Assembly: GCF_000003815.2 (NCBI RefSeq)
Contig: NC_049986.1
Span: 1,239,781-1,303,780 of the forward strand
Origin: Branchiostoma floridae
Taxonomy: Eukaryota; Chordata; Leptocardii; Amphioxiformes; Branchiostomatidae
Length of the DNA: 64,000 bases
Reading direction: 5' to 3'
Shown here: piece after piece, positions 20,516 to 57,440 of the stretch
Layout of the letters: each line of letters begins with the position of its first letter
How positions within the stretch are numbered: position 1 is the first letter of the stretch
Made by a program: the position numbers and the translations under genes
Notes under the pieces: model-generated
What the model saw: only the letters and a program-made list of their open reading frames with translations
Told to the model about the DNA's origin: nothing
Database searches by the model: none

Positions 20516-23500
20516 TTACTTCGGCATCTCCCAAGGCCAGTAGGTGTTAGGTACTGTGACAGGGGGAAGGGACGAGCGCCGTGTTGTGTTACGGGTTCCC
20601 ACCCCCGGTACGTACCAAGGCCAGTAGGTGTTAGGCAGTGTTACGGATGGAAGTGACTCCCCCCTTGGTCTCATACCGTTTCCCTCCCCCGGTATGTGCC
20701 AAGTCCAGTAGGTGTTAGGCAGTGTTACGGATGGAAGTGACTCCCCCCTTGGTCTCATACTGTTTCCCTCCCCCGGTATGTGCCAAGGCCAGTAGGTGTT
20801 AGGCAGTGTGACAGGGGGAAGGGAAGACTGCCGTGTTGTGTTACGGGTTCCCTCCCCCGGTATGTGCCAAGGCCAGTAGGTGTTAGGCAGTGTTACGGAT
20901 GGAAGTGACTCCCCCCTTGGTCTCATACCGTTTCCATCCCCCGGTATGTCCCACGGCCAGTAGGTGTTAGGCAGTGTGACAGAGGGAAGGGACGCGCGCC
21001 GTGTTGTGTTACGGGTTCCCTCCCCCGGTATGTCCCAATGCCAGTAGGTGTTAGGCAGTGTGACAGGGGGAAGGGACGACCGCCGTGTAGTGTTACGGGT
21101 TCCCTCCCCCGGTATGTGCCAAGGCCAGTAGGTGTTAGGCAGTGTTACGGATGGAAGTGACTCCCCCCTTGGCCTCATACCGTTTCCATCCCCCGGTATG
21201 TCCCATGGCCAGTATGTGTTCGGCAGTGTGACAAGGGGGAGGGACGCACGCCGCGGTGTGATACGGGTTCCATCTCCTGAGACTTCCCAAGGAAAGTAGG
21301 CATCAGGGAATGTGAGGAAAGCGATATGAGCTTCCGTGACGTTTTGACCACTAGACAGAATCGCATCTGTGGCGTTGACATACGTCCTTAAGCCATGGCT
21401 GGTAGCTTGGGATACCAAAGCAGTCCTCGTTTTACTACGGGTTCTTATGCTTTGGGCCTCGGGAGCAGTTCTATAGAAGTTGTTTACCTGGGTCCTGGTC
21501 ACTTCAGCCGACCCATATGCGGCAATGGACCTTCCAGACCGGTGTCTGCTGGAAGCGATGGTGTTATCTCGGAAGGCCCGTCGATTCTGTCGCCTGTTTG
21601 TCACGACATGTAGGGAAAACTCTGCCCCATCAGCATAGAAAGGTATGGGACCGCTATCCTCATCATCTGGGATCTCACTGTAAGTGTGAGGTGGGGCAGG
21701 CATGTGGCGCTGTGTAGCGGCTTCCTGGTCTGGTTCTGGACTGCGAGGGAGAGCTGGCAGGGGGCGCTGTGCAGCGGCTATGTCATCAGGGATCTCAGTA
21801 TAAGTCGGTTCGACAGACTGGAGAACTGCCGGCAATGACTTGCAGGAGGCCGCATCATCGGGTGTTTTCCCTAGAGTGCATGCCGGGAGGGACACTGACC
21901 GTACCACACCGGAGATGACGTCATCTGGGATCTCCCAGTATGTGTGGGGGAGACTAGGCAGAGGTCTATGAGCAGTGGCTATGTCATCTGGGATCTCGCT
22001 GTAAGTAGGATCGATTGTATCGAGTACAGCGGGCAATGACCTACAGGAGGCTATATCATCAGAAGCCGCATTGCCTGACAATGCAGGGAGTGAAGCCGAC
22101 CTCAGCAGGCCGGGGAAAGCAACGCCAGGTGGGATTATCCAAATGTGTGCATCGTCGCTGGCACTCCCATCCTCTGCGTTAAGCCTTGCAGAGCGCAACT
22201 TCCATACCAACACTACAAGGGACGCCACCACAACACTGACCACTGCCGAGACAACAACTGAGATGAGAACATGATCTGTTGCCGGAGGCACCTCTGAATC
22301 ATGAGTGGTGCTCACTTGTGTAGAGGTGTCTCTGGGTTCTGAAGATGTGTAGCCCTTCTCTGTGTGCCTAGAGTTGTGTGACAGGCTGCTGGAGTGGTCA
22401 GTGGTTGTTCTGTAAGTGGTTACTGTAGTGTGTGCCTGGTGTTGGGCCGGATGAATGGTGAAGAACAACTCTGTGTGTTCATCTTTAGTGATCAGAATGC
22501 AGGTGATGTTTTTCATGTCGTCATGAATGGCGTTTGTGTGGGTGGTGTCCTCAGTGTTTGTCGGCGTGTTTGTGCGTTGTGTCTGGACAAATGACATGGC
22601 GACATCTTCAACGGTTGTATTCCCTGTGGCCATGGAAACCAGCTGGAAGATTATGTTTCCCATCAGATCCACCTTGATGCCGTCACCGTATTCCCAAACC
22701 TGCCTGCACTGCTGCTCAAGCTTGTTTGGAACCGTGTTGTCATCCAGAGAGTCACCAGTAGCTAAAACAACCACAGGGGCCTGGACGGAGATGGTGCTCA
22801 AAGAGCGATCCAACTCACCACACGATATGCCAGGGTTGACACCTTCCATCTTGATTTTATCAGACCCATTGTCCGATGTATCAACCATCCACCCAAACGA
22901 GAGTTCATGACTATTCTGCTTGACACAGAAGATGAACTTGGGCACCTCAACTACCATTGTCACTGCATTTCTGAAGACTCTTGCAAGCCGACTCAGACTC
23001 CATTTCATGCTATGTGGCTTAGCATCATGGACAGATGACAACACGCTACTGCTGACCCGCAGGTACAATAACGTAGACTGTCCTGACAACACTTTTTCAT
23101 CCAAGCATGACAGATCATTGCCACGCAGGTCTAACCAGTACAGCTTCAGATGGTGGAACGACGCTGGGGAAATGCTATTGATAGCATTAGAACTTAGATC
23201 CAAGGTCAAGCCACCTGTCGGCCGAATGAGCCAGGAGGGGTCTACAACCTGTAACAGGTTGTTCTCTAGATCCAAACCAACAAGGTACTTTAGGTGCACG
23301 AAGCTTCTTGGATCTATGTGCCTGATGTTATTGTTGGACAAAATCAGCACAACAAGCTTCTCCAAGCCAGTGAACCAGGCCTGCTTGACATGTGACAACC
23401 TGTTAGAATCTAAGGACAGTTTCCTGAGACTGGAAAACCCAGCGAAGGTGTTGTTGTCCACGTCAGTGATGTCTGCATCTATCAGAGACAAAGAACTATG

Positions 23501-23848
23501 CAACTCCGCATGCTCAAGCTGTGCCAGTTTCAAGACCGACAGGACATGAAACGGGTACCCTCTTATTGCTACATCATTGACTTTAGCAATAAGAGGGAAC
23601 GGGCTTCCAGAGGTAACAACCCCATGCACGACACTACAGAAGACACACGTACGAGCGCCATAGGTCGTAACAGAAAGTGCTTTTGACCCACCTGTGATAG
23701 GCAAACACTCCCTCCATCCAGCTGTCTCACACTGAGTATAACCCAAACCATTTTCAGCACAGGCAGCTACCCAGAGAAGCAAGAATAACAAAGCTGTGTT
23801 CTCCTTCGCACCGCCTCTCACACACATTCCAGCTGTATATCCCAACAT
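20516..23848 (-). CDS. Single-exon LRR transmembrane receptor with repeated cytoplasmic tail
   Basis: 1110 codons from the ATG at 23848; the open frame extends upstream to 23938 but without another ATG. Numbering from 23848: signal peptide with hydrophobic core TALLFLLLWVAACA (about 18-31); LRRs about 118-245 (LRKLSLDSNRLSHV, LVVLILSNNNIRHI, LVGLDLENNLLQVV, LYWLDLRGNDLSCL); a Cys-containing region with no family I recognise; a Thr/Ser stalk about 435-520; one membrane span about 525-550 (SVVVSAVVSVVVASLVVLVW) then KLR. The tail has four YxEIPDD motifs, two RPLPxLP motifs and, from about 868 to the end, a 28-residue tandem repeat. So it is probably a surface recognition receptor with a signalling tail. 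The open repeat array argues for selection on the protein. A second Met lies 7 codons in. No canonical polyadenylation signal was seen close downstream. Confidence 0.8.
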   Translation of the reverse strand: MLGYTAGMCVRGGAKENTALLFLLLWVAACAENGLGYTQCETAGWRECLPITGGSKALSVTTYGARTCVFCSVVHGVVTSGSPFPLIAKVNDVAIRGYPFHVLSVLKLAQLEHAELHSSLSLIDADITDVDNNTFAGFSSLRKLSLDSNRLSHVKQAWFTGLEKLVVLILSNNNIRHIDPRSFVHLKYLVGLDLENNLLQVVDPSWLIRPTGGLTLDLSSNAINSISPASFHHLKLYWLDLRGNDLSCLDEKVLSGQSTLLYLRVSSSVLSSVHDAKPHSMKWSLSRLARVFRNAVTMVVEVPKFIFCVKQNSHELSFGWMVDTSDNGSDKIKMEGVNPGISCGELDRSLSTISVQAPVVVLATGDSLDDNTVPNKLEQQCRQVWEYGDGIKVDLMGNIIFQLVSMATGNTTVEDVAMSFVQTQRTNTPTNTEDTTHTNAIHDDMKNITCILITKDEHTELFFTIHPAQHQAHTTVTTYRTTTDHSSSLSHNSRHTEKGYTSSEPRDTSTQVSTTHDSEVPPATDHVLISVVVSAVVSVVVASLVVLVWKLRSARLNAEDGSASDDAHIWIIPPGVAFPGLLRSASLPALSGNAASDDIASCRSLPAVLDTIDPTYSEIPDDIATAHRPLPSLPHTYWEIPDDVISGVVRSVSLPACTLGKTPDDAASCKSLPAVLQSVEPTYTEIPDDIAAAQRPLPALPRSPEPDQEAATQRHMPAPPHTYSEIPDDEDSGPIPFYADGAEFSLHVVTNRRQNRRAFRDNTIASSRHRSGRSIAAYGSAEVTRTQVNNFYRTAPEAQSIRTRSKTRTALVSQATSHGLRTYVNATDAILSSGQNVTEAHIAFLTFPDAYFPWEVSGDGTRITPRRASLPLVTLPNTYWPWDIPGDGNGMRPRGESLPSVTLPNTYWPWHIPGEGTRNTTRRSSLPPVTLPNTYWHWDIPGEGTRNTTRRASLPSVTLPNTYWPWDIPGDGNGMRPRGESLPSVTLPNTYWPWHIPGEGTRNTTRQSSLPPVTLPNTYWPWHIPGEGNSMRPRGESLPSVTLPNTYWTWHIPGEGNGMRPRGESLPSVTLPNTYWPWYVPGVGTRNTTRRSSLPPVTVPNTYWPWEMPK
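20519..21330 (-). repeat. 84-bp coding tandem repeat of the LRR receptor tail
   Basis: One degenerate unit (about 21250-21330), eight full units and a final partial unit. Each 28-residue unit has the frame SLPxVTLPNTYWPWxIPGxG followed by one of two endings, TRNTTRRS or NGMRPRGE. The two endings are interspersed, as if higher-order duplications occurred. All units keep the frame. Confidence 0.85.
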
Positions 23849-23984
23849 TTTATCCGAAGTACACTTACCTGCAGATCCGTGAGTTGTGAACTTCCCCAGC
23901 GTTTTCGGTACATAACAAGATTTACGCCACCGGTGCAACGACGCGTGTGGACACAGTGCCGCTTTATTTGCTACTGGATTGACT

Positions 23985-29397: not shown

Positions 29398-30561
29398 TTA
29401 CACACTTTCACCGATGTGAGTTTTCATATGCGCACGAAGACTACGTGAATGACGATAGCTTTTGTTGCACTTTTCACACGTGTATGGTGTCTCGCCAGTG
29501 TGAGTCCGCATGTGACTCTTCAAATTCGACAACTGAATGAACTGTTTACTGCACTCCTCACACTTGTACGGTTTTTCACCAGTGTGTGTCCGTATGTGCC
29601 TCTTAAGATTAGTCAACTGACTGAACTGTTTGCTGCACTTCTCGCATCTGTACGGTTTTTCCCCTGTGTGAGTCCGTGTATGTCTTTTAAAATGAGTCGG
29701 GTCACTGAATTGCTTGTTGCACTCCTCACATGTGTACGGTTTCTCACCCGTGTGAGTCCGCATGTGTTTCTTTAGACTAGACAGTTTGGCAAACTGCTTG
29801 CTGCATGCCTCACATCTATACGGTTTCTCATCCGTGTGAGTTCTCATGTGATTTTGCAGGATACCAAGTCTACTGAACTGCTTGCAACATGCCTCACACC
29901 TGTATGGGTTTTCCCCAGTGTGAGTCCGCACGTGAGCCTTCAGATGAGCTGCCTGACTGAAGCGCTTGTTGCAATATTCACACTCGTATGGTCTCTCACC
30001 GGTGTGAGTTCTCATGTAGTCCTCCACATTAGATTGTTGACTAAACCGTTTCCCACAATAATCACACTCGTATGGTCTCTCACCAGTGTGAGTATGCATA
30101 TGTATTTTCAGGGTACCAAGCCTACTGAACTGCTTGCTGCATTCCTCACATCTATACGGTTTCTCACCCGTGTGAGCTCTCATGTGTATTTTTAGGATAT
30201 GAAGCCTACTGAACTTCTTGTAGCATGCCTCACACCTGTAAGGGTTTTCCCCTGTGTGAGTCCGCATGTGAGCCTTCAGATGGGATGACTGACTGAAGCA
30301 CTTGTTGCAATATTCACACTCGTACGGTCTCTCACCGGTGTGAGTTCTCATGTGGTCTTTCAGATTACATAGCTTAATAAACCATTTCCCGCAATCATCA
30401 CGCTGGTATGGTCTCTCACCTGTGTGAGTTCGCAGGTGTTGATTTAGGCTACTTTTGAAGGGAAACTCCTTCTCACAATAGCTGCACTTGTGGGTACGGG
30501 GAGAATCCTGTCCACCCTCTCCCTCCATTTGTTTCAGATGAGATCCGGCTGTGGTCGCCAT
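29398..30561 (-). CDS. C2H2 zinc-finger protein ZNF1 (13 fingers)
   Basis: 387 codons. The ATG at 30561 (MATTAGSH) is chosen over one three codons upstream because the two paralogues also begin MATPA. An acceptor (ttctttagtcttgcag) ends at 30581, 19 bases before the ATG, so the coding region is one exon behind a noncoding 5' exon. After a 25-residue leader with SPRTHKC come 13 C2H2 fingers with TGE(K/R)P(Y/F) linkers. Finger 2 lacks its first Cys (YQRDDC) and finger 6 its first His (VEDYMRTH), so about 11 should bind zinc. No KRAB, SCAN or BTB domain. Probably a nuclear DNA-binding protein; the target is unknown. Divergent partner of ZNF2 across a palindrome. Confidence 0.85.
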   Translation of the reverse strand: MATTAGSHLKQMEGEGGQDSPRTHKCSYCEKEFPFKSSLNQHLRTHTGERPYQRDDCGKWFIKLCNLKDHMRTHTGERPYECEYCNKCFSQSSHLKAHMRTHTGENPYRCEACYKKFSRLHILKIHMRAHTGEKPYRCEECSKQFSRLGTLKIHMHTHTGERPYECDYCGKRFSQQSNVEDYMRTHTGERPYECEYCNKRFSQAAHLKAHVRTHTGENPYRCEACCKQFSRLGILQNHMRTHTDEKPYRCEACSKQFAKLSSLKKHMRTHTGEKPYTCEECNKQFSDPTHFKRHTRTHTGEKPYRCEKCSKQFSQLTNLKRHIRTHTGEKPYKCEECSKQFIQLSNLKSHMRTHTGETPYTCEKCNKSYRHSRSLRAHMKTHIGESV

Positions 30562-30570
30562 GTTGGTCAA

Positions 30571-37293: not shown

Positions 37294-37971
37294 ATGGCGA
37301 CTCCGGCTGTATATCATCTGGAAAAAGAGAAGGGAAGTAATGGACGTGGAGAGGATCTTCCGCGTACACACAAGTGTGGCGAGTGCGGAAAGGAGTTTCG
37401 TCGACTGAGTAATTTAAAGATACACATGCGTTCTTACACTGGCGAGAAACCGTTTAGATGTGAGGAGTGCGGCAAACAGTTTAGTCAGCTGGGTAATCTG
37501 AAGAGACATATGAGAACCCACATCGGTGAGAGACCTTATAAGTGTGATAAGTGTAGCAAACAGTTAAGGGACCATGGCCATATGAAGAGTCATATGAGGA
37601 CTCATACTAATGAGAAACCATTCAAATGTGACGAGTGCGGCAGACAGTTCAGTCAGCTAGATCATGTTAAGAGTCATATGCGGACTCACACCGGTGAGAA
37701 GCCCTATAGGTGCGATGAATGCAGCAAACAGTTTAGTGTGATGTGTAGTCTGAAGAAGCATATGCGGACTCACACTGGTGAGAAACCTTACAGATGTGAG
37801 AAGTGCGGCAGGCAGTTTAGTCGGCTTGATAACCTGAAGAGCCATGTGATGACACATACCGGTGAGAAACCCTACCAGTGTAAAGAATGCAGTAGGAGCT
37901 TCCGTACCTCAAGTAATCTCCGGAGGCACATGCGAACCCACAGTGATAGAAGTTCACAGCTACCGATTTGA
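37294..37971 (+). CDS. C2H2 zinc-finger protein ZNF2 (7 fingers)
   Basis: 225 codons, ATG at 37294 14 bases after an acceptor (ccattcctgcag, ends 37280), the same arrangement as ZNF1 and ZNF3. Leader MATPAVYHLEKEKG ... LPRTHKC, then seven fingers. Finger 1 has Tyr for the last His (KIHMRSYTG) and finger 3 has Leu for the conserved Phe (KQLRDHG). The C-terminus is HMRTHSDRSSQLPI and stop. A LINE begins about five bases after the stop, so the original 3' untranslated region now lies beyond 41368. Probably a nuclear DNA-binding protein. Confidence 0.85.
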   Translation: MATPAVYHLEKEKGSNGRGEDLPRTHKCGECGKEFRRLSNLKIHMRSYTGEKPFRCEECGKQFSQLGNLKRHMRTHIGERPYKCDKCSKQLRDHGHMKSHMRTHTNEKPFKCDECGRQFSQLDHVKSHMRTHTGEKPYRCDECSKQFSVMCSLKKHMRTHTGEKPYRCEKCGRQFSRLDNLKSHVMTHTGEKPYQCKECSRSFRTSSNLRRHMRTHSDRSSQLPI

Positions 37972-37976
37972 GGTTT

Positions 37977-40900
37977 CGGCCGGCCAGGCACCCTACGGGG
38001 ATGATACCCTAGCTTGCATCCGTAGGGGCTGTGAAGGGGGTAACCCTGTTTCAGCCCTAGGAGCAAGTCGGCTTCGGCCCCTGGTCTTTTTATTTGGCTT
38101 GGGTTGACTGCCCAAGTCATCTTATCTCATATTGTCACATTACAATTACGAAAAGCCTCGAAATGGACTGATCTAATGGCGATGACCCTTGCAAGAATTG
38201 ACAAAGATTATGGAATTGTGATCCAATTTATGCTACCCTTTTTTGTGCTGTTCCTTATTTGTGGTGATATTCACCCGAACCCAGGTCCTCAGCAAAATGA
38301 GCTCATTGTTCGATTCACAAACATTAGAGGTTTACGCACTAATCTGACATACCTTGAACACAATCTAGTTGCATCGCATCCTCATATATTTTGTATATCA
38401 GAAACCTTCTTAAGCAGTAAGGTCTATGATGAGCTATTGGTGATACCTGGTTACTCTGTCTTCAGAAGGGATAGACCCAATGACTCTGGTTGGGGTGGGT
38501 TAGTAGTGTACTGCAGTGAAGCTCTTACTGTTGCAAGAATGCCCGACTTTGAGAATCACTACTATGAATATATATGCCTTCAAGTGTCCTTGCCTGGCCG
38601 TAAGATTTTCATGTTTTGTGTCTACCGGCCCCCATCAGATGATGATTCTTTATTTGATGTGTTATCTGAGAATATTGACAATATCCAAGAGCTCCACCCA
38701 AAATCAGAGATTATTGTCCTTGGGGACTTAAACTCTCACCACGAAGACTGGTTAGGCAGCGACAAGACTGACATGCATGGAGAATGTGCATATGAATTTG
38801 CTATTCTGAACAATCTCCAACAACTCGTCGATGAACCTACTAGGCTTGGTACTGACGGCAAGTGCTCCAAACTGGACCTTTTTCTAACTACCTCTCCTGA
38901 TAACCATGCTGTTACCGTCAGCGCGCCTCTTGGGTCCTCTGACCACTGCGTGGTAACTTCTGTGGCAAACTACAAACTTCCAACCCAGAGCAAACCTGGG
39001 AGACGTAAAACATGGTACTATGACAAAGCTGATTGGGACGGAATGCGCTCCTATCTGGCTGACACAAACTGGTCTACTCTCCTAAAAGGCAAAAGTGCTG
39101 ATGCAGCATGGACCTGTGTGAGAGATGTGATTAGTGATACTATGGACATGTTCATTCCTTCCAAAATGACCAAACATTGCTTTTCTGACAAACCATGGTT
39201 TAATGAAGATTGCAAACTAGCTGTTAAACAGAAACAAAATGCATTCAAAAGATGGCAAAACAACCGAACAATGGACTTCTGGACTTTGTATATTAAGTCA
39301 AAGGCAGAGTGCCAACGAGTTGTGCGCCGTGCTCGTGCGCAGTTTTCACTGCACTTACAACAGAACCTCAAGCATGCAGACAATAAGCAGTGGTGGAAGC
39401 TTGTCAAATCAGTAACTGACAGCAAGAAAACGTCTTCTGTCCCTCCATTAGTCAGTGAAGGCAAAACTTACAGTAAGGCGAAAGATAAAGCTGAGTTGCT
39501 GAATAAGACCTTCGCTGCAAATGCTCATCTTAACGACGCAGGGAAAAGCCCCCCGGTCCTGCCACCCAAAACAGATGAAAGTCATGAAACCATCTCATCT
39601 CTGAAATTCTGGCCCAAAACAGTTCTTCGGAAACTACGTAACTTAGACACCACCAAGGCCAATGGGCCAGATGGAATATCGGCAAAGGTACTCAAGAAGT
39701 GCGGCCCGGAACTTGCCCCTGTTCTAGCCAAACTATTCCAAATCTCTCTTGACTCACAGACAGTTCCCTCCGACTGGAAAGCTGCCCAGGTGATAGCTGT
39801 TCCTAAAAAGGGAAACAAGAAAGATCCTTCCAACTATAGGCCCATATCCTTATTGCCGATAATATCCAAAGTTATGGAAAGTATTATGTGCGACCACATC
39901 CGTAAACATCTCGATAGACACCAGCTTCTTTGTGACAGCCAGTATGGATTTCGAGAGAAGAGATCAACAATTGACATGCTTTCATATATTACTCAGTGGT
40001 GGAACAATGCTCTTGACACTCAGAAAGAAATTCGAGTCATTGCCCTGGATATTAAGAAAGCGTTTGATCGTGTTTGGCACCGCGGTCTACTGTCCAAGCT
40101 GATCTCCTTTGGTATCCACGGGGATCTGTACGGTTGGATCTCATCCTTCCTAGCCGACAGATGCCAATCAGTAGTACTGGATGGTTTTACCTCCTCATCA
40201 ATTCCAATAAGTGCCGGAGTCCCCCAGGGGAGTGTCTTGGGACCCCTTCTGTTCCTGATCTTTATAGATGATCTTGAACAACACTTAGTTAATGACCTCC
40301 ACCTATTCGCAGATGATTCAACACTACATGTGGTGATTAAAAGCCCTGGCCTAAGAAACACTTGTGCTTTGAGCTTACAACAGGATCTTGACTCGATAGA
40401 AAAGTGGGCCTCCGACTGGTGCATAACATTCAATGCAGGTAAAACTGAGGAGATGATCATAAGTAGGAAACGGGACCTGACTCATCCTCCGCTGTTTTTC
40501 ATGAATGAAGAACTGAAGCCTACTCAGAGCATAACTTTGCTTGGTGTCACTATCACCAATACTCTAACCTGGACCCCATTCATCAAAAGCCTTGCCACAA
40601 AAACCGCAAGAAGGCTGTTTATCCTAGGACGCACCAGGGACCTTCTCCCTCTCCAAGCCCGGATAACAGTATACAAGGCATATATCCGCCCTCTAATGGA
40701 ATATGCGTCCCCCATATGGAGTGGCGCTGACACAACAGCTTTAAAGATGCTAGATAGACTTCAGAGCAAAGCTCTTCGTCAACTTCAGATTAGGGTCGAC
40801 CCACAGAATGCCGGCATCTTCCCCTTGGACCACAGGAGGAAAGTAGCCAGTCTCTGCACCTTCTACCGGCACATCTTCCTACAACCTTCCCAGGAACTTT

Positions 40901-41368
40901 CAGGAATCATGCCGACACGCGCAACCGGGACACGAGTAACCAGATCATCCACAAGAGCTCACCCTTACCTTGTTAAAGTACCGAGATCAAATACCCAACT
41001 TCACCTATCATCTTATGTACCACGAACTAGTAGACTCTGGAATTCACTTCCAGCATCAGTGTTTCCAGCAAGACCCGACATGAACATTTTCAAGACAGCT
41101 GTTAACAAATTTCTTTTGAACTATAATTCTCAGAGCTAGCTTCATTGCATATGTATATAATTGTATATTTGAGTTGATGTAGACGCTTTTGGGATGTACA
41201 TATGAGCTAATGTAAACGTTTTTGGATCACAATAATGTGCTTAATGTTCGAGGCTACTGTAATGTAAATGTGACGTATGACTGCTTTACTTTGTATCGTA
41301 TGGGCCGTATATCATCAGCATGATGTAAATATTCAGGTCCTTTTGTACTGATTAAAAAAAAAAAAAAA
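37977..41368 (+). mobile_element. CR1/L2-like LINE with an intact ORF2-like frame
   Basis: About 3.4 kb with a GC-rich 5' leader, one long open frame, a 220-base 3' untranslated region and a run of about 16 A. Flanked by aggttt at 37971-37976 and 41369-41374. The homologous ZNF3 3' flank has no element here, which supports the boundaries. No separate ORF1 is present, so it is either 5' truncated or from a one-ORF lineage. Confidence 0.75.
38176..41139 (+). CDS. LINE endonuclease/reverse transcriptase
   Basis: 987 codons from the first in-frame ATG (38176); the frame is open from about 38104. Order: GDIHPNPGP typical of CR1/L2 LINEs; an apurinic-type endonuclease with CISETFL, CVYRPPS, LGDLNSHH and GSSDHCVV; then reverse transcriptase with NYRPISLLPIISKVMESI, QYGFREKRSTIDML, ALDIKKAFDRVWH, AGVPQGSVLGPLLFLIFIDD and the catalytic HLFADDSTLH; then the thumb and the C-terminus (ASPIWSG ... 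RLWNSLP). All expected catalytic blocks are present and there is no internal stop, so this copy may be recent. Function: target-primed reverse transcription of its own RNA in the nucleus. Confidence 0.85.
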   Translation: MAMTLARIDKDYGIVIQFMLPFFVLFLICGDIHPNPGPQQNELIVRFTNIRGLRTNLTYLEHNLVASHPHIFCISETFLSSKVYDELLVIPGYSVFRRDRPNDSGWGGLVVYCSEALTVARMPDFENHYYEYICLQVSLPGRKIFMFCVYRPPSDDDSLFDVLSENIDNIQELHPKSEIIVLGDLNSHHEDWLGSDKTDMHGECAYEFAILNNLQQLVDEPTRLGTDGKCSKLDLFLTTSPDNHAVTVSAPLGSSDHCVVTSVANYKLPTQSKPGRRKTWYYDKADWDGMRSYLADTNWSTLLKGKSADAAWTCVRDVISDTMDMFIPSKMTKHCFSDKPWFNEDCKLAVKQKQNAFKRWQNNRTMDFWTLYIKSKAECQRVVRRARAQFSLHLQQNLKHADNKQWWKLVKSVTDSKKTSSVPPLVSEGKTYSKAKDKAELLNKTFAANAHLNDAGKSPPVLPPKTDESHETISSLKFWPKTVLRKLRNLDTTKANGPDGISAKVLKKCGPELAPVLAKLFQISLDSQTVPSDWKAAQVIAVPKKGNKKDPSNYRPISLLPIISKVMESIMCDHIRKHLDRHQLLCDSQYGFREKRSTIDMLSYITQWWNNALDTQKEIRVIALDIKKAFDRVWHRGLLSKLISFGIHGDLYGWISSFLADRCQSVVLDGFTSSSIPISAGVPQGSVLGPLLFLIFIDDLEQHLVNDLHLFADDSTLHVVIKSPGLRNTCALSLQQDLDSIEKWASDWCITFNAGKTEEMIISRKRDLTHPPLFFMNEELKPTQSITLLGVTITNTLTWTPFIKSLATKTARRLFILGRTRDLLPLQARITVYKAYIRPLMEYASPIWSGADTTALKMLDRLQSKALRQLQIRVDPQNAGIFPLDHRRKVASLCTFYRHIFLQPSQELSGIMPTRATGTRVTRSSTRAHPYLVKVPRSNTQLHLSSYVPRTSRLWNSLPASVFPARPDMNIFKTAVNKFLLNYNSQS

Positions 41369-45105: not shown

Positions 45106-45643
45106 ACGGTTGTATTTCTACATGTGCGTTAATGGAGAGCGTTTTATGATCCTAACATTACCAGACTGGGAATAATAAAAATGTATTTAATGTGGCTCTG
45201 CCTTAACTAGTTGTATGCTCTAAACCAGCCCCTGACGTGTCTAAGGCGTCTACAAAATTGTGCGTGGGTAGACAAGCAGACATATATATGCAATTTCATT
45301 TACTACTTTTCTGTCTGAGTAGATGTTTCAAATCAGGAGGTCTCCAAATTGGTTCTGTGATTACAATACGTGATGGTACTCAGCCTGTAGTCAACAGTGC
45401 AAGATATATAATCAGGCATGAGATACCGTCTTGAGCACGGCAGACATACGTACAGCATGTATGATACACACACGACGCTAATATATTTGCTGAAGACAGT
45501 TTCAAGATCGCACAGTACTTACTTAACCTGCTTTTCAAGGCGATGCGGAGCCCTACATATATATATCTGAGCATTTGAAGCAAACTCGTGGCGTGTACGT
45601 ATCTCTTTCTGACCAGGTGGAACTGAGGACAACTCGTACAGAC

Positions 45644-47570
45644 ATGAAAGAAAGTGGACTGCTGTTGCTCCTTACTTTGATACGTCTGTGGTCAGGTTGT
45701 GCTTGCCGGCTACGTGTAGCATACACTATTTGTCATACTTCGGGACATCGATAGTTCACTGTTACAATACAAACCTTACGGCGATTCCTGACGACATCCC
45801 GGCCAATGCTGACAGCTTTACCTTGTCCAGTTCATGTAGCATCGGGAACGTATCATATCTTCCACCACTACCGCGGCTGCGTGCCCTGGAACTATATAGG
45901 AACTGTATAGATTATTTTTGCTGGATGTCTTTGCGTGCGCTGCCAAATTTAGAATCTCTTTGTCTCCCGGGAAACCGACTTCGGTACGTGAAGCTGGACA
46001 CCGTCATTGAGCATCTCCCGAAGCTGAAAGAAGTTGACCTACGTTTCAACAAATTGGCGTCGTTCTCTGAGTACGAGCTCGGGCGGCCACAAGTCATCGA
46101 TACACTTATCAACGATAACCCATTTCACTGTGACTATGCCCTCAACTGGCTGATTGTCAAGATGGCGTGTTTACGGGACTGTAAGGGGAAAGAACGACAG
46201 AACTCCTGTTGTTCTCGCTGTTCAGCTTGTTTTCTCGTCAGAAGCCTAAAAATGGGCGCTCATGTCTGCTCCAGTCCGCGTGAACTGAATAAGCTGCGTT
46301 TGTCCAACGCGCTCGTGACTGCCAAACTGACGGGCTGTGAGACACACCGCCCCACCACAGAACCTACAGCGATACCGGTGACTTCAGTCGTGTTTCCTTC
46401 AGATGGGACTCAGACCAAGCGTCAGCTGCAGCGCAACGAAACTTCTCTGTCCACGATGCAGACAGGCTCTGCACAGACCGCGACTTCTTCTCTGAACGCC
46501 ACGGACACGACGCGTCAAAACAACTACCAGTTTTGTACAACCCCGTCTCTGCAACTGGTACTTTCTTGGCTATAGCTATCGTACTCTGCCTCGTACTCAG
46601 ACGGTACTACGTTAAAATCAACAACTCCCCGGGAGCTGTCAATCACGGACACCAGCCTGTCAATCAAACTACACCACCGATAGTAAACCACGAATATCCT
46701 ACAGGAGCTTTGGATGGCGGGAATTCGGCAGTCATGGACGGAAGAGAAAGTACAGCATCAACAACAATCCACACTTACGAAAATCCTACAGGAGATTTGT
46801 ATGGCGGGAATTCGGCAGTCATGGACGGAAGAGAAAGTACAGCATCAACAACAATCCACACTTACGAAAATCCTACAGGAGATTTGGACAGCGGGAATTC
46901 GGCAGCCATGGAAGAAAGAGAAAGTACAGCACCAACAACAAACCGCACTTACGAAAATCCTACAGGAGATTTGGATGGCGGGAATTCGGCAGTCATGGAC
47001 GGAAGAGAAAGTACAGCATCAACAACAATCCACACTTACGAAAATCCTACAGGAGATTTGGACAGCGGGAATTCAGCAGCCATGGACGGAAGAGAAAGTA
47101 CAGCACCAACAACAAACCACACTTACGAAAATCCTACAGGAGATTTGTATGGCGGGAATTCGGCAGTCATGGACGGAAGAGAAAGTACAGCATCAACAAC
47201 AATCCACACTTACGAAAATCCTACAGGAGATTTGTATGGCGGGAATTCGGCAGTCATGGACGGAAGAGAAAGTACAGCATCAACAACAATCCACACTTAC
47301 GAAAATCCTACAGGAGATTTGGACAGCGGGAATTCGGCAGCCATGGAAGAAAGAGAAAGTACAGCACCAACAACAAACCACACTTACGAAAATCCTACAG
47401 GAGATTTTGATGGCGGGAATTCGGCAGTCATGGACGGAAGAGAAAGTACAGCATCAACAACAATCTACACTTACGAAAATCCTACAGGAGATTTGGACAG
47501 CGGGAATTCAGCAGCCATGGATGGAAGAGAAAGTACAGCACCAACAACAAGCATATACTCTATTGAATGA
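45644..47570 (+). CDS. LRR transmembrane receptor 2 with ten YENP-type tail repeats; frame broken twice
   Basis: Three consecutive segments in three frames make one receptor. (1) ATG 45644, frame 2: signal peptide MKESGLLLLLTLIRLWSGCA. (2) Frame 1, about 45690 to 46540: LRR N-cap (LPATCS ... VHCYNTNLTAIPDDIP), about four LRRs (LRALELYRN, LESLCLPGNRLRYV, LKEVDLRFNKLASF), LRR C-cap from NPFHCDYALNWL with extra Cys, then a Thr/Ser stalk. (3) Frame 3, about 46530 to 47570: membrane span GTFLAIAIVLCLVL, RRYYVK and a tail of 29-residue repeats. Each break equals loss of one base or gain of two, near 45690-45710 and 46505-46545. It could be a recent pseudogene, a null allele or assembly error. The intact repeat frame argues the gene worked until recently. 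Expected place: plasma membrane. Confidence 0.65.
46694..47558 (+). repeat. 87-bp coding tandem repeat of receptor 2 tail
   Basis: Ten units of 29 residues; nine contain TYENPTGD and the first HEYPTGA. Two subtypes are interspersed: (D/Y)GGNSAVMDGRESTASTT and DSGNSAAM(D/E)(G/E)RESTAPTT. Some units are nearly identical at the DNA level, so array length has probably changed recently. The array is open in two other frames as well simply because 87 is a multiple of three. Confidence 0.9.
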
Positions 47571-47602
47571 GATAGGGATGGGGGACAGGGGACAGTCACG
47601 AA

Positions 47603-47670
47603 TGAAACACTAGAAAGGCCGACATTTGCTTAAGAGCAAATACAGCATATTTCAGCCATACCCCTTCCCA
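47603..47670 (+). repeat. Left-end fragment of the 160-bp-period element
   Basis: ctagaaaggccgacatttgc followed by gcaaatacagcatatttcagccat matches 6308-6365, the left end of copy 1. The rest of the element does not follow. Confidence 0.5.
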
Positions 47671-48904
47671 CGCAACATTGGACTGTTCCAAATCACCCCT
47701 GCGCAAAAATGGAACATCCTCTTAACAGTACATTATCCCCCAAAGTGGACTGGTATTGTGAATTGATTCCAGGTAAAGACAGAGCTTGCTTCTATTTTTC
47801 AGAAAATGACAATAATCACACCTTCCATTCAGAAAATTTTCATCATAACTGAAAATTGTTGAATGACTTCATCATGTAATGTCATTAACAATTTTCAGTA
47901 CGATAACTAGGTGTAAGTTTAAAAAAGTATAAGCTCCTTGTGATGTGGGTACATTTATTATTGCAGTGAACTTTTTTTATTCAAGTAGGGCATACGATTT
48001 AATAATTATCAAGCAGGTGCAGGTACTGTAGGAGCGTTTGTTTTCTTCAAGCTGTAAAACTGTTAAACTGTTTTACTTTGTATGCAATCAGCCATCGAGC
48101 CTATTCTTATTTTAGTTTAACAACTCAGTCCTGCCAGACCCGGAAGATACGATTGAACCTTGTTCGAGGATTTATTTTCGTCTGTCTGGTCAGTCTGTTC
48201 ATACCCTGGCGCTGAGAGTGTTTTATTGGGCTGAAACTCTGGCAGTTTAAAGTTACTTACAATTTAAATGTTCAAAGTTTATGTCAAACAACAACAGCAC
48301 TAGGAACACATACATTTGCTCTGGAGAAAATACAGCAATTTTCGCAAGTTCCAGTCCAGTGATAGAAATGTGGCCACTATAGACAGGTGGTCACTATAGA
48401 GAAAAATGCTGATCTATTGACTAGGAGCCATACGTTACACATGATCAGTACACTGATCATTAATCATATAAACATTGCACAGGTAAGCCAATTGTTTAGA
48501 TGTACAATTAAGTTCAAATAATTCTGAAGAGAAATATTGATGAGAAAATAATCATTCTCGCCACTGTCTAACTTATAATTACGTATCAAAACTAAACGCA
48601 GATTTTCTAACTAACGCACCTTTCGCCGACTTCATCAAAGGACCGCCGGCTATCAATCAAACACGGCTGTTGATTAGACTTAGAGTTTCAAACAGTCATG
48701 TGCTGTGTGCCAGTTGACAGCGAACTTCATGCTACGTGATGTTTTACATTGCTTGGACCTTCTTTCCTACAGCGGTGCTTCTACAAAATATTTAGACTGT
48801 AACACTGAGTCCCACATGTTTTATAGAATAGAATTTGACGCAGAACAGCGTTTTTTGCTGGGTATTTTTCTTGAAACATGTCCGTGGGAATATCAGCGAG
48901 GCGG
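47671..48904. other. Intergenic, nothing recognised
   Basis: 3' flank of receptor 2. A short inverted pair (acaattttcagta near 47888, ctgaaaattgtt near 47848) is visible. No gene seen. Confidence 0.4.
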
Positions 48905-49683
48905 CGACGTAGGGATATCAGACCGTCAACAAAAGTCGCACGGCGGCTAACGGCGCAGCGAAGATACTAGCGCTATAAATAAGCGCTTCAACTAAGGATG
49001 GCAACCCGTACAATATTTTTGTATACTGTTGAGCTAAGTAAAGTTTGTTGTTTATGAGGTTTTAGTTGTCTTTGAAGCTTTGACCCGAAATATTTTAAAG
49101 TCAAACTGCTGAAGAGAAGTAAGTGACTGCTACGATTATCGTAGATATGGCCCTAAAAAAACTGATAAAAGAAGCCTTCTCAATAGTCTAAAATGCAAGA
49201 GCTTCCGGGGGGGTTTCGCCCACCTGGGTCTTCCCCCCCCCCCCCCCCCAACAGTGGCCCTGCCCCTGGACCCCGCCAGGGACATTCGGCGGCCCCTGGA
49301 CCCCTGTCCGACGCTTTGAAAAAATCCTGGCGAGAAGTCTGTACGGCCTGAGTCTTCAAGTTAACGTATTGTGTGGTCCCGCTTATGAATATTAATTAGC
49401 CTTCGCTTTCCTCTTCGCTGATTGGCTGAACCATTAATTGAATTAACTCTTCCTGCCGGCTAGACGCAGGTGCAGATGTCGGCTCTGTGGGGTGAACGTT
49501 CGAAAGGTCATGGCATGGAGAACGAAAGAAAACCAATTTCCCCTAAAAAAAGTGCTGTGATTAAGCCTTATACAGTCCTTTATGCCAAAAATTTTACTTG
49601 GATCATTTTACCAACTATCTTATGCCTATCTATACCAAATGTTACTCATACCAGGGTACAGGGGTGCAAAATATACCGTTATA
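48905..49683 (+). repeat. Tandem duplication, unit 1
   Basis: Shared with 49684-50300 in the same order: gaccgtcaacaa.agtcgcacgg, ctaac.gcgcagcgaa, ctgaagagaagt, gactgct.cgattatc, gcttatgaatattaattagc, cgctgattggct, ctatctataccaaat. Between them runs GC-rich sequence with an 18-C run at about 49232. Confidence 0.65.
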
Positions 49684-50300
49684 AGACCGTCAACAACAGT
49701 CGCACGGAGCTAACAGCGCAGCGAAAATACCATCGCTAGCGTTTCAACTTCGGATAACAAGTTATAAGTACTGTTGAACTCAGTAACGTTAAAGTTTGTT
49801 TTTAGTTGCCTTTGACGGTTTGACCTGAAATAGTGTTACGCTAAACTCCTGAAGAGAAGTTAAGTGACTGCTGCGATTATCATAGATATGCCCCTAAGAA
49901 CTGATACAATATAAAGCCTTCTGAATAGTCTAAAATGCGAGAGCCTTAGGCGGGCTTCGCTCCCCCTGGCGGGAACACTGCTATATACGGGATCATGAGG
50001 CCCCGCTTATGAATATTAATTAGCCTTTGGCCTCCTCTTCGCTGATTGGCTAGGTCTTTGATTCAATTAACTCTCCGGCTGACGCGCACAGTTGTGGCTC
50101 TGTGCGGGGTCACGAAAGGTCACGTCAGGAGGCCAAAAGAAAAAAATTTCCCCTCAGAAAAGTGCCAAAATTAATCATTTTAAAGTTGTTTATGTCAAAA
50201 ATTTTACTTGAATCTTGTTACCAAGTATCTAATGCCTATCTATACCAAATTTCAGGTCATTTAATTGTAATACCAGGTTACAGGAGCCAAAAGTGTCCTT
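49684..50300 (+). repeat. Tandem duplication, unit 2
   Basis: See unit 1. Unit 2 is shorter and runs straight into the 160-bp-period repeats, whose first core (ctataccaaatttcaggtca) lies at its end. Confidence 0.65.
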
Positions 50301-51022
50301 TTTTGGTCAAAAATTGGCCAAAAATCGCAAAAATAAGCATTTTCTTGGACTGTACACCAAAAGTGTTATTGAATTTATATGAAGGGATTATCAAGGCACA
50401 TCTGTGTCAAATTTCAGCTCATTCGGTTGCAATACCAAGGTACAGGAGCCAAAAGTGTCCTTTTTTGGTCAAAAATTGGTCAAAAAATCGCAAAAATAAG
50501 CATTTTGTTGTACTGTACACCAAAAGTGTTATCGAATTTATATAGGGGCATTATCAAGGCACATCTCTGTCAAATTTCAGCTCATTTGGTTGTAATACCA
50601 GGGTACAGGGGCCAAAAGTGTCTTTTTTTGGTCAAAAATTTGTCAAAAATCGCAAAAATAAGCATTTTGTTGTACTGTACACCAAAAGTGTTATCGAATT
50701 TATATGGGAGCATTATCAAGGCACATCTCTGTCAAATTTCAGCTCATTTGGTTGTAATACCAGGGTACAGGGGCCAAAATATACAGTTTTGGTCTAAAAT
50801 TGACCAAAAAATCTCAATAAAATCATTTTAGAGGCAAATATGAAAAAACTGAGAAAAAAGCATCAAGGTATTGGCCCATTCTACCCCTGTGCCAAATTTC
50901 AGGTCATTCGGTCCAGGAACGGCGGAGATGAATCACTTTGAAGATTTGACAGGAGAAAGAAAGAAAGAAAGAAAGAAACATTACGAATACAATATATTTC
51001 ACCATACTATGTATGGCTGAAA
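50215..51022 (+). repeat. 160-bp-period repeat element, copy 3
   Basis: Units start near 50249, 50408, 50569, 50729 and 50890, more alike than in copy 1. Right end ttcaccatactatgtatggctgaaatata as in copy 1, preceded by a (gaaa) run. Confidence 0.6.
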
Positions 51023-51033
51023 TATAATAACCT

Positions 51034-51222
51034 ATGGCGTCGGCACCAAAGATAGACCATATCTACTCTACCGAAGAAGAGGTGGATACATGTACAACAA
51101 CAAACGAGCTCTACTCTATTGACGAACTTCAATGTTTGGATAATCGAACAGAAACACAGAAACAACAGCAACCAATCTACTCTACTGAAAGTTTGACTGA
51201 ACATCCGGCTGTCCCAGATTAG
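51034..51222 (+). pseudogene. Receptor-tail-like fragment with repeated Tyr motifs
   Basis: ATG to TAG, 62 codons, with HIYSTEEEVD, ELYSIDELQC and PIYSTESLTE, three spaced YSxE/D motifs. The DNA at 51098-51125 (acaacaaa ... tactctattga) resembles the end of the receptor 2 array (47548-47568, TSIYSIE). It starts 12 bases after the repeat element and has no signal peptide or membrane span. It may be a detached tail of a related receptor, or a downstream exon; I cannot decide. Confidence 0.4.
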
Positions 51223-52750
51223 TCGAGCTCTACAAGGATTGACAGGACTCTACCATCTAGTCTGTACACGTCACCAACAGTCAACTCTGCAGGCACAGAT
51301 GGTGCATTGTAGTGACCTATACATGAACATAGCGCCAAAGCAGGACATACAGAACCCTTGGAGAGCTTCGGAAGAAAGGTTCCAGTACACCACCAGAATT
51401 ATACTAACATGTACGAACGAAACATGACATTTAGTGAGCACCAGGACAAAGAGCTTCTACAGAAACTCATCAAATTCCAATAGTAACAACCGAGAATAAA
51501 GGACTAGAGCTTCTACACAAACAAAGGGCTTTGTGATCAAACACATATTGGACGCCGCCGCCTGTCACACATTGGGCCTCTGGGTTCAGGACTGCAAAAA
51601 TAACACTTTGGAAGACCGGGATGTCTAGGTGGAAGGACCCTACGTAAATCTCAATCATAGACATTATTGCCATATAGAGAGAGAGCCAGTGTAGTTCTTA
51701 CAGTACTGCGAACAGGTAACAACATACGGACAGTCATGGTATAAGCTATTCAACATTTATCAGACATATTTAGCACCAAGGACAGACCCAAAGTGACCTA
51801 CGACATGGCATTCCTTTAAAACGTCGCCTTTACAAGGTTAACTGAACCCAATTACAGCATACATGAATAGTATTCAGTGACTTTTCCTTTCTTCTGTTCA
51901 ATGACAACATTAGTCTTTTCTTATCTTTAGCAAGCCTTTTCTGTTTCTTATTGATATAGTCTGTAGGCTATAGTGTCTCTTTTCCGAGCCTAGCAACCTT
52001 TCTTACTTGATACACAATACTTTTACTTATGGCACGCCTGAAAAAGTGAGATTAATGATCACAAACTGTGACGTAATGTTTATTTTATTACACCACACTG
52101 ATGTAACTGAGTCAAGTGTGTTTGTTGAGTGCTGTGAATGAAAACGTATTGTTTTGAGTAGGGCTCTGTTTAAAATTGGAGTTACTAATTAAAGAGATTA
52201 GCGAAACGTGAAACTACATTTAGTGGCAATGGTTTTCTGTAATGGCAAAGTAACAGTTCTATATATCTAGAACGTTTAAGGTGATAGAAAACAAACTGTC
52301 GATAGGGCATTCGTTTACACGGACGTAATCATACCCGACATGCAATTGCTTACCAACCTTTTCGACAGTAGGACAAGACAAGACAAAACATAATGGCTAG
52401 AATCGAGTGTTGTTTAATCACACGTTTACTTTTATCGCCATGGTGTTAAGGAGGAAGAGGAATGATTAATTGTATCCGTTATTATGAAAATGAATAGACT
52501 GCACGTTTCACAAAAGCCTACTGTATGTATTCTTTTACTAACGCTGCACTTAACAATCTTCGCAAAATTAATAGCAGTATACAAGAGAAAATCATATTGA
52601 GTATGACTGGGGCATACATTGGCCACCTTTCTATGTGCTGCCACCATGCGGAACCTAACGGCGAAGCATAGGTTTGACTTATTTTGCACTGATCCAGTCT
52701 GATGGTGAAGAAGATGATAAAATTAACAGAAGGGACAAATGGGCGGGTGG
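51223..52750. other. Intergenic, nothing recognised
   Basis: Short open frames only. Confidence 0.35.
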
Positions 52751-52779
52751 CAACATGGAGGCATTCATATACGGAACAA

Positions 52780-53050
52780 CTTAAAAGCGTCGACTTGCGA
52801 GACAGAACACAAGTGTTGATGTCAAGTGTCCACGGCAGCCTAAAAGTGTTCTTTTGTGCGACAGCCTAAGACTGTTAGCTGGTGGGACAGCCTAAAATTG
52901 TTCATGGGGGGGACAGCTTAAGCATTTATGGAAAGTTGGGGGGGGGGGGCAAAAATAAAAGTGTTGATTGTTGGAACAACTGAAAAAAAGTTATTGATGG
53001 ATGACACACATTAAAGCGTCGAAATTCCAGGACAGAACAAAACAGAGATA
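52780..53050. repeat. Degenerate minisatellite
   Basis: Seven or so spaced variants of ggacagcctaaaagtgttc (for example 52834, 52859, 52888, 52911) at 25-40 base spacing, with a G run at 52937. Confidence 0.5.
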
Positions 53051-53384
53051 CTGACATTTCCCTCGATTACATGATCCATAAAATGGCGATAAGTTTTTAA
53101 AATTCGGTGGACACAGTTAGATCGCTTAATACTTTATAGTTATGCCACAAAATGTTTGTTCTTCCCAAGTGAGATTTCCCCCATATCATTAGATAGTGTT
53201 TGCTTTTAACATTCATAAAGCAGACCAGCCAATATGCTTACAGGCGCATGGGCCCATACCGCAAAGTGCAAATTACCGGTGATAGAAGAACTGCGTCTAA
53301 TTCATAACGGAATTAAGTTCGAATGGGCAGATCGACAGCCCCCTGACATCTACGGCAATCCTGTTGCCAGTAATGATCATAGCG

Positions 53385-53440
53385 TTTGTCAGGGACGTCC
53401 CTCGGATAGGATGATATATGGTGGTCCCGTTTCATAAGGA
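53385..53440 (+). mobile_element. SINE fragment
   Basis: gggacgtccctcggatagga ... tggtggtcccgt matches the inner part of the SINE at 54125-54160 (gggccgtcccttggatagga). Confidence 0.5.
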
Positions 53441-53589
53441 AACCTGGTGAGGCAGTATATCGAGCATGCGATACAAACAAAGCATATTAACATCAGACTA
53501 GCATTCCCCCTTTTTGATGCATTTTTGTGTATATTTGTGTCCATTTATGTTTAAACAAATTGACAAGAACACGTTTAATCACTACATAA

Positions 53590-53963
53590 GAAGAGAGGCA
53601 TACGTCGGCAAAGAAGAAGACACACCGAACGCACTGCTGAAAATACACGTGAACGAAATACAAGTGTTTATCTCATCATTGTTCTCCGATACGTTTTTCA
53701 CAGACCAATCTGAGTATAGTTTAAAAAAAGGGCCATTCCAGACGGGTTGACAGATTACATTACGTGAGGGTATCCAGTGGTGTCTGCTCTTTCCTAAAAC
53801 CAATCTTCCAAGTGTAAAATATGGAATTTTTAGATTGATTCTCAGATAAAAGAACACGACAGTATCCGTTGCTACTTCTCTACAGAGTTTAAAAACGCTC
53901 GAGTAAGAGAGGTCGACTGACGAATCGTTGCCCTGTAAATGGTGTATATAAGAAATAAAAAGA
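53590..53963 (+). repeat. Direct duplicate of 44715-45105, right copy
   Basis: See the left copy. A SINE begins directly after this copy. Confidence 0.65.
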
Positions 53964-56112: not shown

Positions 56113-57015
56113 TTACACCGGTAGGGCTTCACCAGTGTGAGTCCGCATATGGCTCTTCAGTTGACCCAACCTGCTGAACTGTCTGCTGCACTCCTTACAT
56201 CTGTAAGGTTTTTCACCGGTGTGGGTTTTTATATGTGTCTTCAGATTACTCAGCACACTAAAATGTCTGCTGCACTTCTCACATTTGTAAGGTTTCTCAC
56301 CCGTGTGAATCCGCATGTGAATTTTCAGAGAACCGAGGACACTGAACTGTTTGCTGCATTCTTCACACTTATATGGTTTCTCCCCGGTATGAGTCTGCAT
56401 GTGTGTTTTCAGTTTGTCCAGCTGACTGAACTGTCTGCCGCACTCCTCACATTTGTAAGGCTTCTCACCTGTGTGAGTCATTTTATGCTTCTTCAGATTA
56501 CCCTGCTGACTAAACTGTCTGCTGCATTCATCGCACCTATAGGGCTTCTGACTGGTATGAGTTCGCATGTGTCTCTTCAGATTACCAAGCCGACTGAACT
56601 GTTTGCTACATTCTTCGCACCTGTAACGCTTCCCACCGGTATGAGTCCTCATATGACTCTTCATATGGTCAAACTGACTAAACTGTCTGCCGCACTCTTC
56701 ACATTTGTAAGGTTTATCACCGGTGTGAGTCTGCCTGTGCCTCTTTAAATGCCCCTGCTCACTAAACCGTTTGCTACACTTATCACACTTATACGGTCTC
56801 TCTCCAGTGTGGGTTCTCATATGTCTCTTCAGATTACCCAGCACACTAAACCGCCTGCTACACCCCTCACATCTAAATGGTCTCTCGCCAGTGTGAGTAC
56901 GCACGTGTCTCTTCAAGTCATTCAGTTTGTGAAACTCCTTGTCGCACTGGCCACACTTGTGTGTGCGTGGAAGAGGCTCTTCTTGTTTCCGATGAGATAC
57001 AGCCGGGGTCGCCAT
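56113..57015 (-). CDS. C2H2 zinc-finger protein ZNF3 (10 fingers)
   Basis: 300 codons from the ATG at 57015; it follows an acceptor (catccctgcag, AG at 57039-57040) by 23 bases, as in ZNF1 and ZNF2. Leader MATPAVSHRKQEEPLPRTH, then ten well-formed fingers with TGEKPY-type linkers (one TSQKPY, one TGGKRY) and a truncated end GEALPV. All ten keep both Cys and both His. Closest relative in the window is ZNF2; the two are inverted duplicates including the 3' flank. No effector domain visible. Probably a nuclear DNA-binding protein. Confidence 0.85.
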   Translation of the reverse strand: MATPAVSHRKQEEPLPRTHKCGQCDKEFHKLNDLKRHVRTHTGERPFRCEGCSRRFSVLGNLKRHMRTHTGERPYKCDKCSKRFSEQGHLKRHRQTHTGDKPYKCEECGRQFSQFDHMKSHMRTHTGGKRYRCEECSKQFSRLGNLKRHMRTHTSQKPYRCDECSRQFSQQGNLKKHKMTHTGEKPYKCEECGRQFSQLDKLKTHMQTHTGEKPYKCEECSKQFSVLGSLKIHMRIHTGEKPYKCEKCSRHFSVLSNLKTHIKTHTGEKPYRCKECSRQFSRLGQLKSHMRTHTGEALPV

Positions 57016-57440
57016 GTTCGATAGGTCTTGTAGGGTCACTGCAGGGATGAAAATGAATTGAAACATTTAGGAAAAAACAGTTGATTTCTTAAAACATGTA
57101 GTCCACTTAAACGACTCAGTTCTCGAGTACAAGCAACGTTAAGTATTACTAAGTTACTTGATGAAAATTTTTACTGCCTCCTTACAAACGCCAGGATCCG
57201 TATGACAAGCAAAGCGGTCTTGTATGATTGAAAGTTCCTTGCAGTTAGCTTCCTTTGCAGACTTCTAGCAGTGCTGGCTGGGAGTGCAGAGATCTGTCAC
57301 ATTTCCTATCCTAGGCCCTGCCAAACTGTTTGTGGAAACGCAACATTTAAGTTTATGCCAATTGATATGCACGTGGAATGCTGTACAATGATCTTTTCCG
57401 TTTTTTTCCCCAAACTGCTATTTGTGTCTACCCTTTCCGT

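Follow-up and report, generated by a model that had tools for sequence, protein, structure and literature searches.

The tandem repeat array

A 64,000-nucleotide stretch of the Branchiostoma floridae genome (NC_049986.1, positions 1,239,781 to 1,303,780; hereafter the window) carries a tandem repeat array that can be read as a series of YENP tetrapeptides, raising the question of whether the array encodes a receptor's cytoplasmic tail and whether its tyrosines could serve as phosphorylation-dependent docking sites. The array (forward strand, coordinates 46689 to 47558) consists of ten 87-nt units, each encoding 29 residues, with YENP in units 2–10 and HEYP in unit 1. Tandem Repeats Finder reported a period of 87 with 9.9 copies, 92% matches and 0% indels (score 1484; coordinates 46690 to 47550), and the unit starts remain in register at 46689+87k with no indels between the ten units. 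All 8 intervals between successive YENP starts measure 87 nt. The repeat finding and in-register reading both bear out the original prediction that nine of the ten 29-residue units contain YENP. The tail of this copy contains nine Y-x-N motifs.

Across the nine YENP units, the first 23 nt counted from the Tyr codon are invariant. When units were compared over 69 nt, 4, 0, 0, 1 and 1 mismatches (mean 1.2) were found between units five apart, versus means of 3.6–5.3 at the other lags (1–4 and 6–8), and units 6–10 seem to have been copied recently from units 1–5; the nine YENP motifs are thus not nine independent observations. The 13 distinct changes within the array (10 non-synonymous and 3 synonymous) are close to the neutral expectation, and there is no sign of purifying selection inside the array. 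As the array is young, with 23 nt identical and units 6–10 copied, identity between its units is uninformative on selection.

All three frames are long and open over the array (stop-free stretches of 409, 308 and 264 codons), so that an open frame alone is no proof of coding. A codon-usage model, trained on the other LRR gene in the window and on the LRR ectodomain of the array-bearing copy, scored the YENP frame at +17.9 over units 2–6 (−23.1 and −30.4 for the other two frames) and at +6.1 over the predicted membrane span and juxtamembrane stretch (−10.4 and −8.5). Codon usage therefore favours the YENP frame for both the array and the membrane-span stretch.

Receptor architecture and the paralogue family

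Upstream of the array, on the same strand, a signal-peptide-like start (MKESGLLLLLTLIRLWSG...; coordinates 45644 to 45705) is followed by an LRR ectodomain with an N-cap, LRRs and a C-terminal cap (coordinates 45691 to 46404), a predicted membrane span (PVSATGTFLAIAIVLCLVL; coordinates 46542 to 46598) with RRYYVK directly after it, and a juxtamembrane stretch (coordinates 46599 to 46688) that shares an open frame with the array. The last tail codons, with SIYSIE read over the end of the array, and the stop codon follow at coordinates 47559 to 47570. The ectodomain matched Pfam models LRR_8 (1.8e-07) and LRR_4 (3.9e-07) and, in phmmer searches, LRRC4B (8.9e-13) and the amphioxus VLR-like protein Bf66946 (1.9e-09), and its AF2 model had a mean pLDDT of 74.1; by Pfam, phmmer and the predicted model, it is an LRR domain. 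No WSC domain was matched in the ectodomain frame in a Pfam scan at E ≤ 0.01. The predicted span has a Kyte-Doolittle mean of 2.28 over 19 residues, and 90 of 2243 stop-free segments in the window reach 1.9. When the window ORFs were scanned with Pfam, only LRR models exceeded the cut-off among the receptor parts; the tail ORF gave one sub-cut-off match to DUF6229, and no SH3 or FAT-like domain was found.

In the window copy as assembled these parts occupy three frames, one for the signal peptide (from 45644), one for the LRRs (open from 45613 to 46572) and one for the span and tail (coordinates 46341 to 47567). The ectodomain frame ends at a stop at 46575 and is not continuous with the array frame, and no single ORF with a signal peptide, LRRs and a membrane span was found in this copy. 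However, a paralogue on the same contig ~720 kb away (L021; C8:2004500–2010500) has the signal peptide in frame with the LRRs and runs from signal peptide to tail in one 587-codon ORF.

All relatives were drawn from this one genome. A search with two array units as the query gave 26 matches, and a search with the ectodomain gave, among the best 150 of 1017 candidates, 19 rows at 64% identity or above, the next row being at 58%. Intact ORFs with a signal peptide, LRRs, a membrane span and a tail were found in 11 paralogues (L021, L022, L023, L025, L026, L027, L029, L031, L032, L038 and L040), and each of the 11 tails contains at least one Y-x-N-P. On their sequences, these 11 genes have the architecture of a single-pass LRR receptor, with capped LRRs and one span in one ORF. 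In an ectodomain tree of 25 rows, the 12 with YxNP tails (the 11 intact genes and the window copy) formed one clade (100/99). The 13 relatives that come next in score (L050–L062, ~50% identity) showed no Y-x-N-P in the tails read; many of these tails are very short, and some are long with Tyr-free repeats. The intact sister genes indicate that tails with repeated tyrosines genuinely belong to a small group of receptors. This group appears to be a lineage-specific LRR receptor family in which tandem repeats have expanded into a predicted multi-phosphotyrosine docking tail.

Two truncated copies, L046 (C8:1.925 Mb) and L047 (C8:3.200 Mb), have equal scores and the same ORF translation as printed and lie on opposite strands 1.3 Mb apart, and L028 (C7) also looks broken; this pair and L028 may be read as signs of birth-and-death evolution.

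The window also contains a second LRR receptor gene on the reverse strand (coordinates 20516 to 23938), with an intact 1140-codon ORF, an LRR_8 match (1.6e-27) and a membrane span near residue 556. Its tail has YSEIP/YTEIP motifs and its own array, in which an 84-bp (28-residue) unit with NTYW recurs in 8.8 copies. In tblastn, neither its ectodomain nor its tail matched the array-bearing gene. Three C2H2 zinc-finger ORFs (29398 to 30570, reverse; 37294 to 37971, forward; 56113 to 57066, reverse) and two reverse-transcriptase ORFs (4481 to 6040 and 38104 to 41139, both forward, the second with an endonuclease domain) were also present.

Conservation of the tail tyrosine motifs

The tails of 12 paralogues (that of L030 incomplete) and the window copy contain 126 tyrosines, of which 36 are in YxN, 35 in YxxP, 32 in both and 87 in neither. 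Among 38 units of the YxNP type, N(+2) was present in 35, P(+3) in 37 and E(+1) in 30. The deviating units were two YEHP in L021 and one YESP in L023, which are YxxP only, and one YENT in L022, which is YxN only.

Y.NP is present in 13 of 13 tails examined for this pattern (the 11 intact genes and the partial genes L024 and L028), which together hold 25. When these tails were shuffled with their composition kept (n=2000), the mean count was 0.54 and the highest 5; on average, ~0.5 of 13 shuffled tails contained the pattern. Taking one Y.NP per tail, the codons were TAC in 10 and TAT in 3 for Tyr, AAT in 12 and AAC in 1 for Asn, CCT in 9 and CCC in 4 for Pro, and CAC in 10 and CAT in 3 for H(−2), with Y, N and P fixed here because the pattern was used to choose the rows, whereas H(−2) was not. 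The +1 residue was E in 6 and D in 4, then G, A and S.

Tyr was also the most retained residue in the aligned tails (276 of 314, followed by Thr with 1000 of 1219, over 20 non-independent pairs), and the aligned Tyr codons were identical in 121 cases, synonymous in 17 and non-synonymous in 38, the last figure including alignment errors. Constraint on the tail tyrosines is visible in these alignments, though not absolute. Outside the window copy, the remaining 100 tail tyrosines have N(−3) in 61, I(−1) in 63, S(+1) in 63, I or T(+2) in 64 and E(+3) in 55, giving a second tail motif that centres on NxIYS(I/T)E.

Candidate kinases and docking partners

On sequence evidence, we consider it rather probable that the array encodes the cytoplasmic part of one receptor in an LRR subfamily whose tails serve multi-phosphotyrosine docking, with the valency set by repeat expansion. 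The window copy itself is probably broken. In the proposed mechanism, ligand binding by the LRRs would bring a Src- or Abl-type tyrosine kinase to the tail, the tail tyrosines would be phosphorylated, and SH2 adaptors would then dock, allowing the tails to cluster. YxNP would dock Grb2-family (pYxN) and/or Crk (pYxxP) SH2 domains and the second motif would dock others, while the number of units would set the valency and minisatellite expansion would change that number. The sequence ahead of Tyr in HTYENP lacks the acidic residues that Src-type kinases usually favour, which counts against this mechanism. The first Tyr of the related motif in APP has been reported as an Abl substrate (PMC10289811), and an amphioxus LRR receptor, BbLcLRR, is described as phosphorylated by Lck, with HDYDDP as one of the sites (PMC8211107).

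In the binding data reported for APP, the pY682 peptide pYENPT binds the Grb2 SH2 domain with a Kd of 0.29 uM (PMC9325707), via pY, N(+2) and T(+4), and the same phosphopeptide binds the Vav2 SH2 domain at 0.86 uM. Grb2 of amphioxus (B. belcheri) has been cloned and is reported to pull down an LRR protein, FrLRR. As N(+2) and P(+3) are kept in the paralogue tails but E(+1) is not, Grb2 or Crk fits better than a strict pYExP reader. The original prediction of nine Grb2-type sites on one receptor therefore holds in part: the receptor context is real in the intact paralogues and pYENPT binds the Grb2 SH2 domain, but two frameshifting indels part the signal peptide, LRRs and tail in the window copy, and Grb2 is not the sole reading, given Vav2, Crk and the loss of YxN from the YEHP units. 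By analogy with APP, Grb2 is a plausible partner but not a unique one.

An SH2 search of the genome gave 54 rows at E ≤ 1e-4, of which 42 were read and 5 checked against solved structures. None of the 42 SH2 pieces read could be identified as Grb2, which, the exon search being limited, is no evidence of its absence, and the best Grb2 candidate, L073, is nearer to SHP2 (1.5e-20) than to Grb2 (9.3e-15). A Crk-type SH2 exon is present (L064; best match a Crk-like protein, 8.1e-39), as are Abl-type SH2 exons. The names given to SH2 pieces other than L064, L068, L073, L091 and L092 are provisional, having been assigned by eye.

The Crk exon bears on the possibility, which we regard as doubtful but the strongest of the alternatives, that Crk and not Grb2 is the main partner and that the tail resembles the substrate domain of p130Cas, a multi-YxxP array, placed on a receptor. 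The Crk consensus is YxxP. Several YxxP motifs have been described in the cytosolic parts of some choanoflagellate membrane proteins, including one protein with 10, two of whose phosphopeptides bind a choanoflagellate Crk SH2 domain (PMC5043372). In the amphioxus tails P(+3) is missing from only one of the 38 units, and the two YEHP units and the YESP unit keep YxxP while a single unit (YENT) keeps only YxN. However, N(+2), which would be unneeded for Crk alone, is almost as well kept as P(+3), and the numbers are too small to separate the two partners.

Frame breaks in the window copy

The alignment of the window copy with L021 covers 1259 columns at 92.1% identity and contains a deletion of 4 nt in the window copy at 45705/45706 and an insertion of 2 nt at approximately 46515 to 46516. 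On this DNA alignment the two frame breaks are frameshifts, not introns. With two frameshifting indels the window copy probably makes no receptor; it appears to have been broken recently, and its non-translation is likely though not proved.

The window copy has also lost a cysteine of the C-terminal cap, reading HCDY where 12 of 12 other rows have HCDC. A stretch of 3417 nt that is absent from L021 (coordinates 47610 to 51026) begins 40 nt past the stop codon and represents either an insertion here or a deletion there; beyond it the duplicated segment continues (coordinates 51027 to 53714), 99.67% identical over 2692 columns to L021:3310–6001. The lost cysteine and the 3417-nt stretch point the same way, being consistent with a broken copy without proving it. 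This stretch contains internal repeats, including 162-bp units, and is perhaps a mobile element, if not the trace of a deletion in the paralogue.

It is nevertheless conceivable, if rather unlikely, that the window copy is functional and that its frame breaks are assembly errors or the lesions of one haplotype. Its ectodomain substitutions, polarised against relatives, number 19 non-synonymous and 12 synonymous compared with 22 and 12 in L021, so that decay is no greater than in an intact copy. Changes at columns invariant in the other rows (gap columns left out) were found at 3 of 93, a proportion spanned by those of the controls L021 (2 of 96), L022 (1 of 95), L025 (0 of 93) and L032 (6 of 99). 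However, the indels are separate and of 4 and 2 nt, unlike single-base homopolymer slips, and other long ORFs of the window are unbroken. The missing cap cysteine and the 3417 nt that part the stop region from the sequence downstream in the paralogue also count against a functional copy.

Repeat dynamics

The repeat unit is 29 residues long in the window copy, L021 and L023, 25 in L027, ~21 (built on the second motif) in L038 and L040, and 7 in L028 and L029. The 25-residue unit of L027 includes the stretch before YENP and the 29-residue unit includes the stretch after it; as they extend opposite ways, the two units are taken to have arisen when the same YENP core was amplified in separate events. 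The window copy, with 10 units versus 6 in L021, has the longest YENP array among the copies read, and the two sequences are identical over coordinates 46585 to 46775. Rapid evolution of the array, as originally proposed, is supported by this difference in unit number between near-identical copies. The duplicated segment (coordinates 45120 to 53714) is a mosaic when compared with L021. Identity is ~91% as far as the ectodomain, reaches 100% from the membrane span through unit 1 and is 99.67% over 2.7 kb downstream, a pattern suggesting that the 3′ half underwent conversion recently or was exchanged later than the rest.

Tyr-free repeats were also seen in the family. L028 and L029 carry juxtamembrane arrays of the heptad HGHQPVN, nearly all of whose units lack Tyr, with one YENP downstream of the array. 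The tail of the more distant member L061 is built from a Tyr-free, Ser-rich repeat (about NNGDSVVSGENQVSPPGL). Repeat expansion thus needs no Tyr, and the prediction that relatives would not lack Tyr in the unit holds within the YxNP subfamily, where Tyr is kept, but not for these tails.

These repeats lend something to an unlikely explanation, that a minisatellite amplifies in the tail exons for mutational reasons, with the tyrosines as passengers and the tail as a flexible spacer. An array without a purifying signal, the copying of units 1–5 into units 6–10 and the very short tails frequent among members at ~50% identity would all be in keeping with it. However, Y-x-N-P is kept, with synonymous codon changes, in 13 of 13 tails of the YxNP subfamily, Tyr is the most retained tail residue, and each of the 29-, 25- and ~21-residue repeats contains a Tyr motif. 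A switch of the ITIM or ITAM type, recruiting phosphatases or Syk-type kinases, is very improbable, since, although BbLcLRR is described as an ITIM-bearing inhibitory receptor (PMC8211107), I/L/V at Tyr+3 is lacking from YENPTG, which has P there, and among the six commonest letters at this position in the other 100 tail tyrosines E accounts for 55 and I for 5.

Comparison with known systems

The multi-phosphotyrosine docking tail favoured here shares features with several known systems. The cytoplasmic YENPTY of APP has the same YENPT core as the array units, but the APP motif ends in Y and the units in G, and APP has one site where an array tail has up to nine. NPxY is absent from the nine YENP units, all of which read NPTG; without the final Tyr of APP the units can no longer be read as PTB (NPxY) sites, though they can still be read as SH2 sites. 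Nephrin, a partner of Nck, likewise has several pTyr sites per tail and is reported to cluster in a manner dependent on pTyr valency, but it has three sites and these are not described as arising from tandem DNA repeats. In LAT-type multivalent pTyr scaffolds, clustering also depends on valency.

p130Cas/BCAR1 and the choanoflagellate YxxP proteins have many YxxP motifs per molecule, some in the tails of membrane proteins (PMC5043372). The amphioxus family differs in its LRR ectodomain, its near-identical DNA repeats, the N at +2 and the lack of any SH3 or FAT-like domain seen; by analogy its tail may at most work like Cas, without being a member of that family. BbLcLRR is also an amphioxus LRR membrane receptor with Lck-phosphorylated tail tyrosines, but it has a WSC domain, and the available account describes three mapped sites and reports no repeat array (PMC8211107).

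Multivalent phosphotyrosine tails are thus already known, but their valency is usually fixed. We tentatively suggest that amphioxus has an innate-type chordate receptor family in which the predicted number of docking sites is a genetic dial, minisatellite expansion having separately amplified the YxNP core (in units of 29 and 25 residues) as well as a second Tyr motif to give one to nine YxNP sites behind the same type of ectodomain. The gain or clustering threshold might then vary from copy to copy, and perhaps among individuals. A natural series for relating signalling to docking-site number would be formed by the near-identical receptors, whose tails have 1, 3, 4, 5 and 9 YxNP sites and the second motif. 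Of the intact members, L031 has 1 YxNP, L021 has 3 and L023 has 5. On this proposal, a chordate receptor family could alter its signalling output via repeat slippage rather than point mutation, which would have a bearing on Grb2/Crk immune signalling before the vertebrates.
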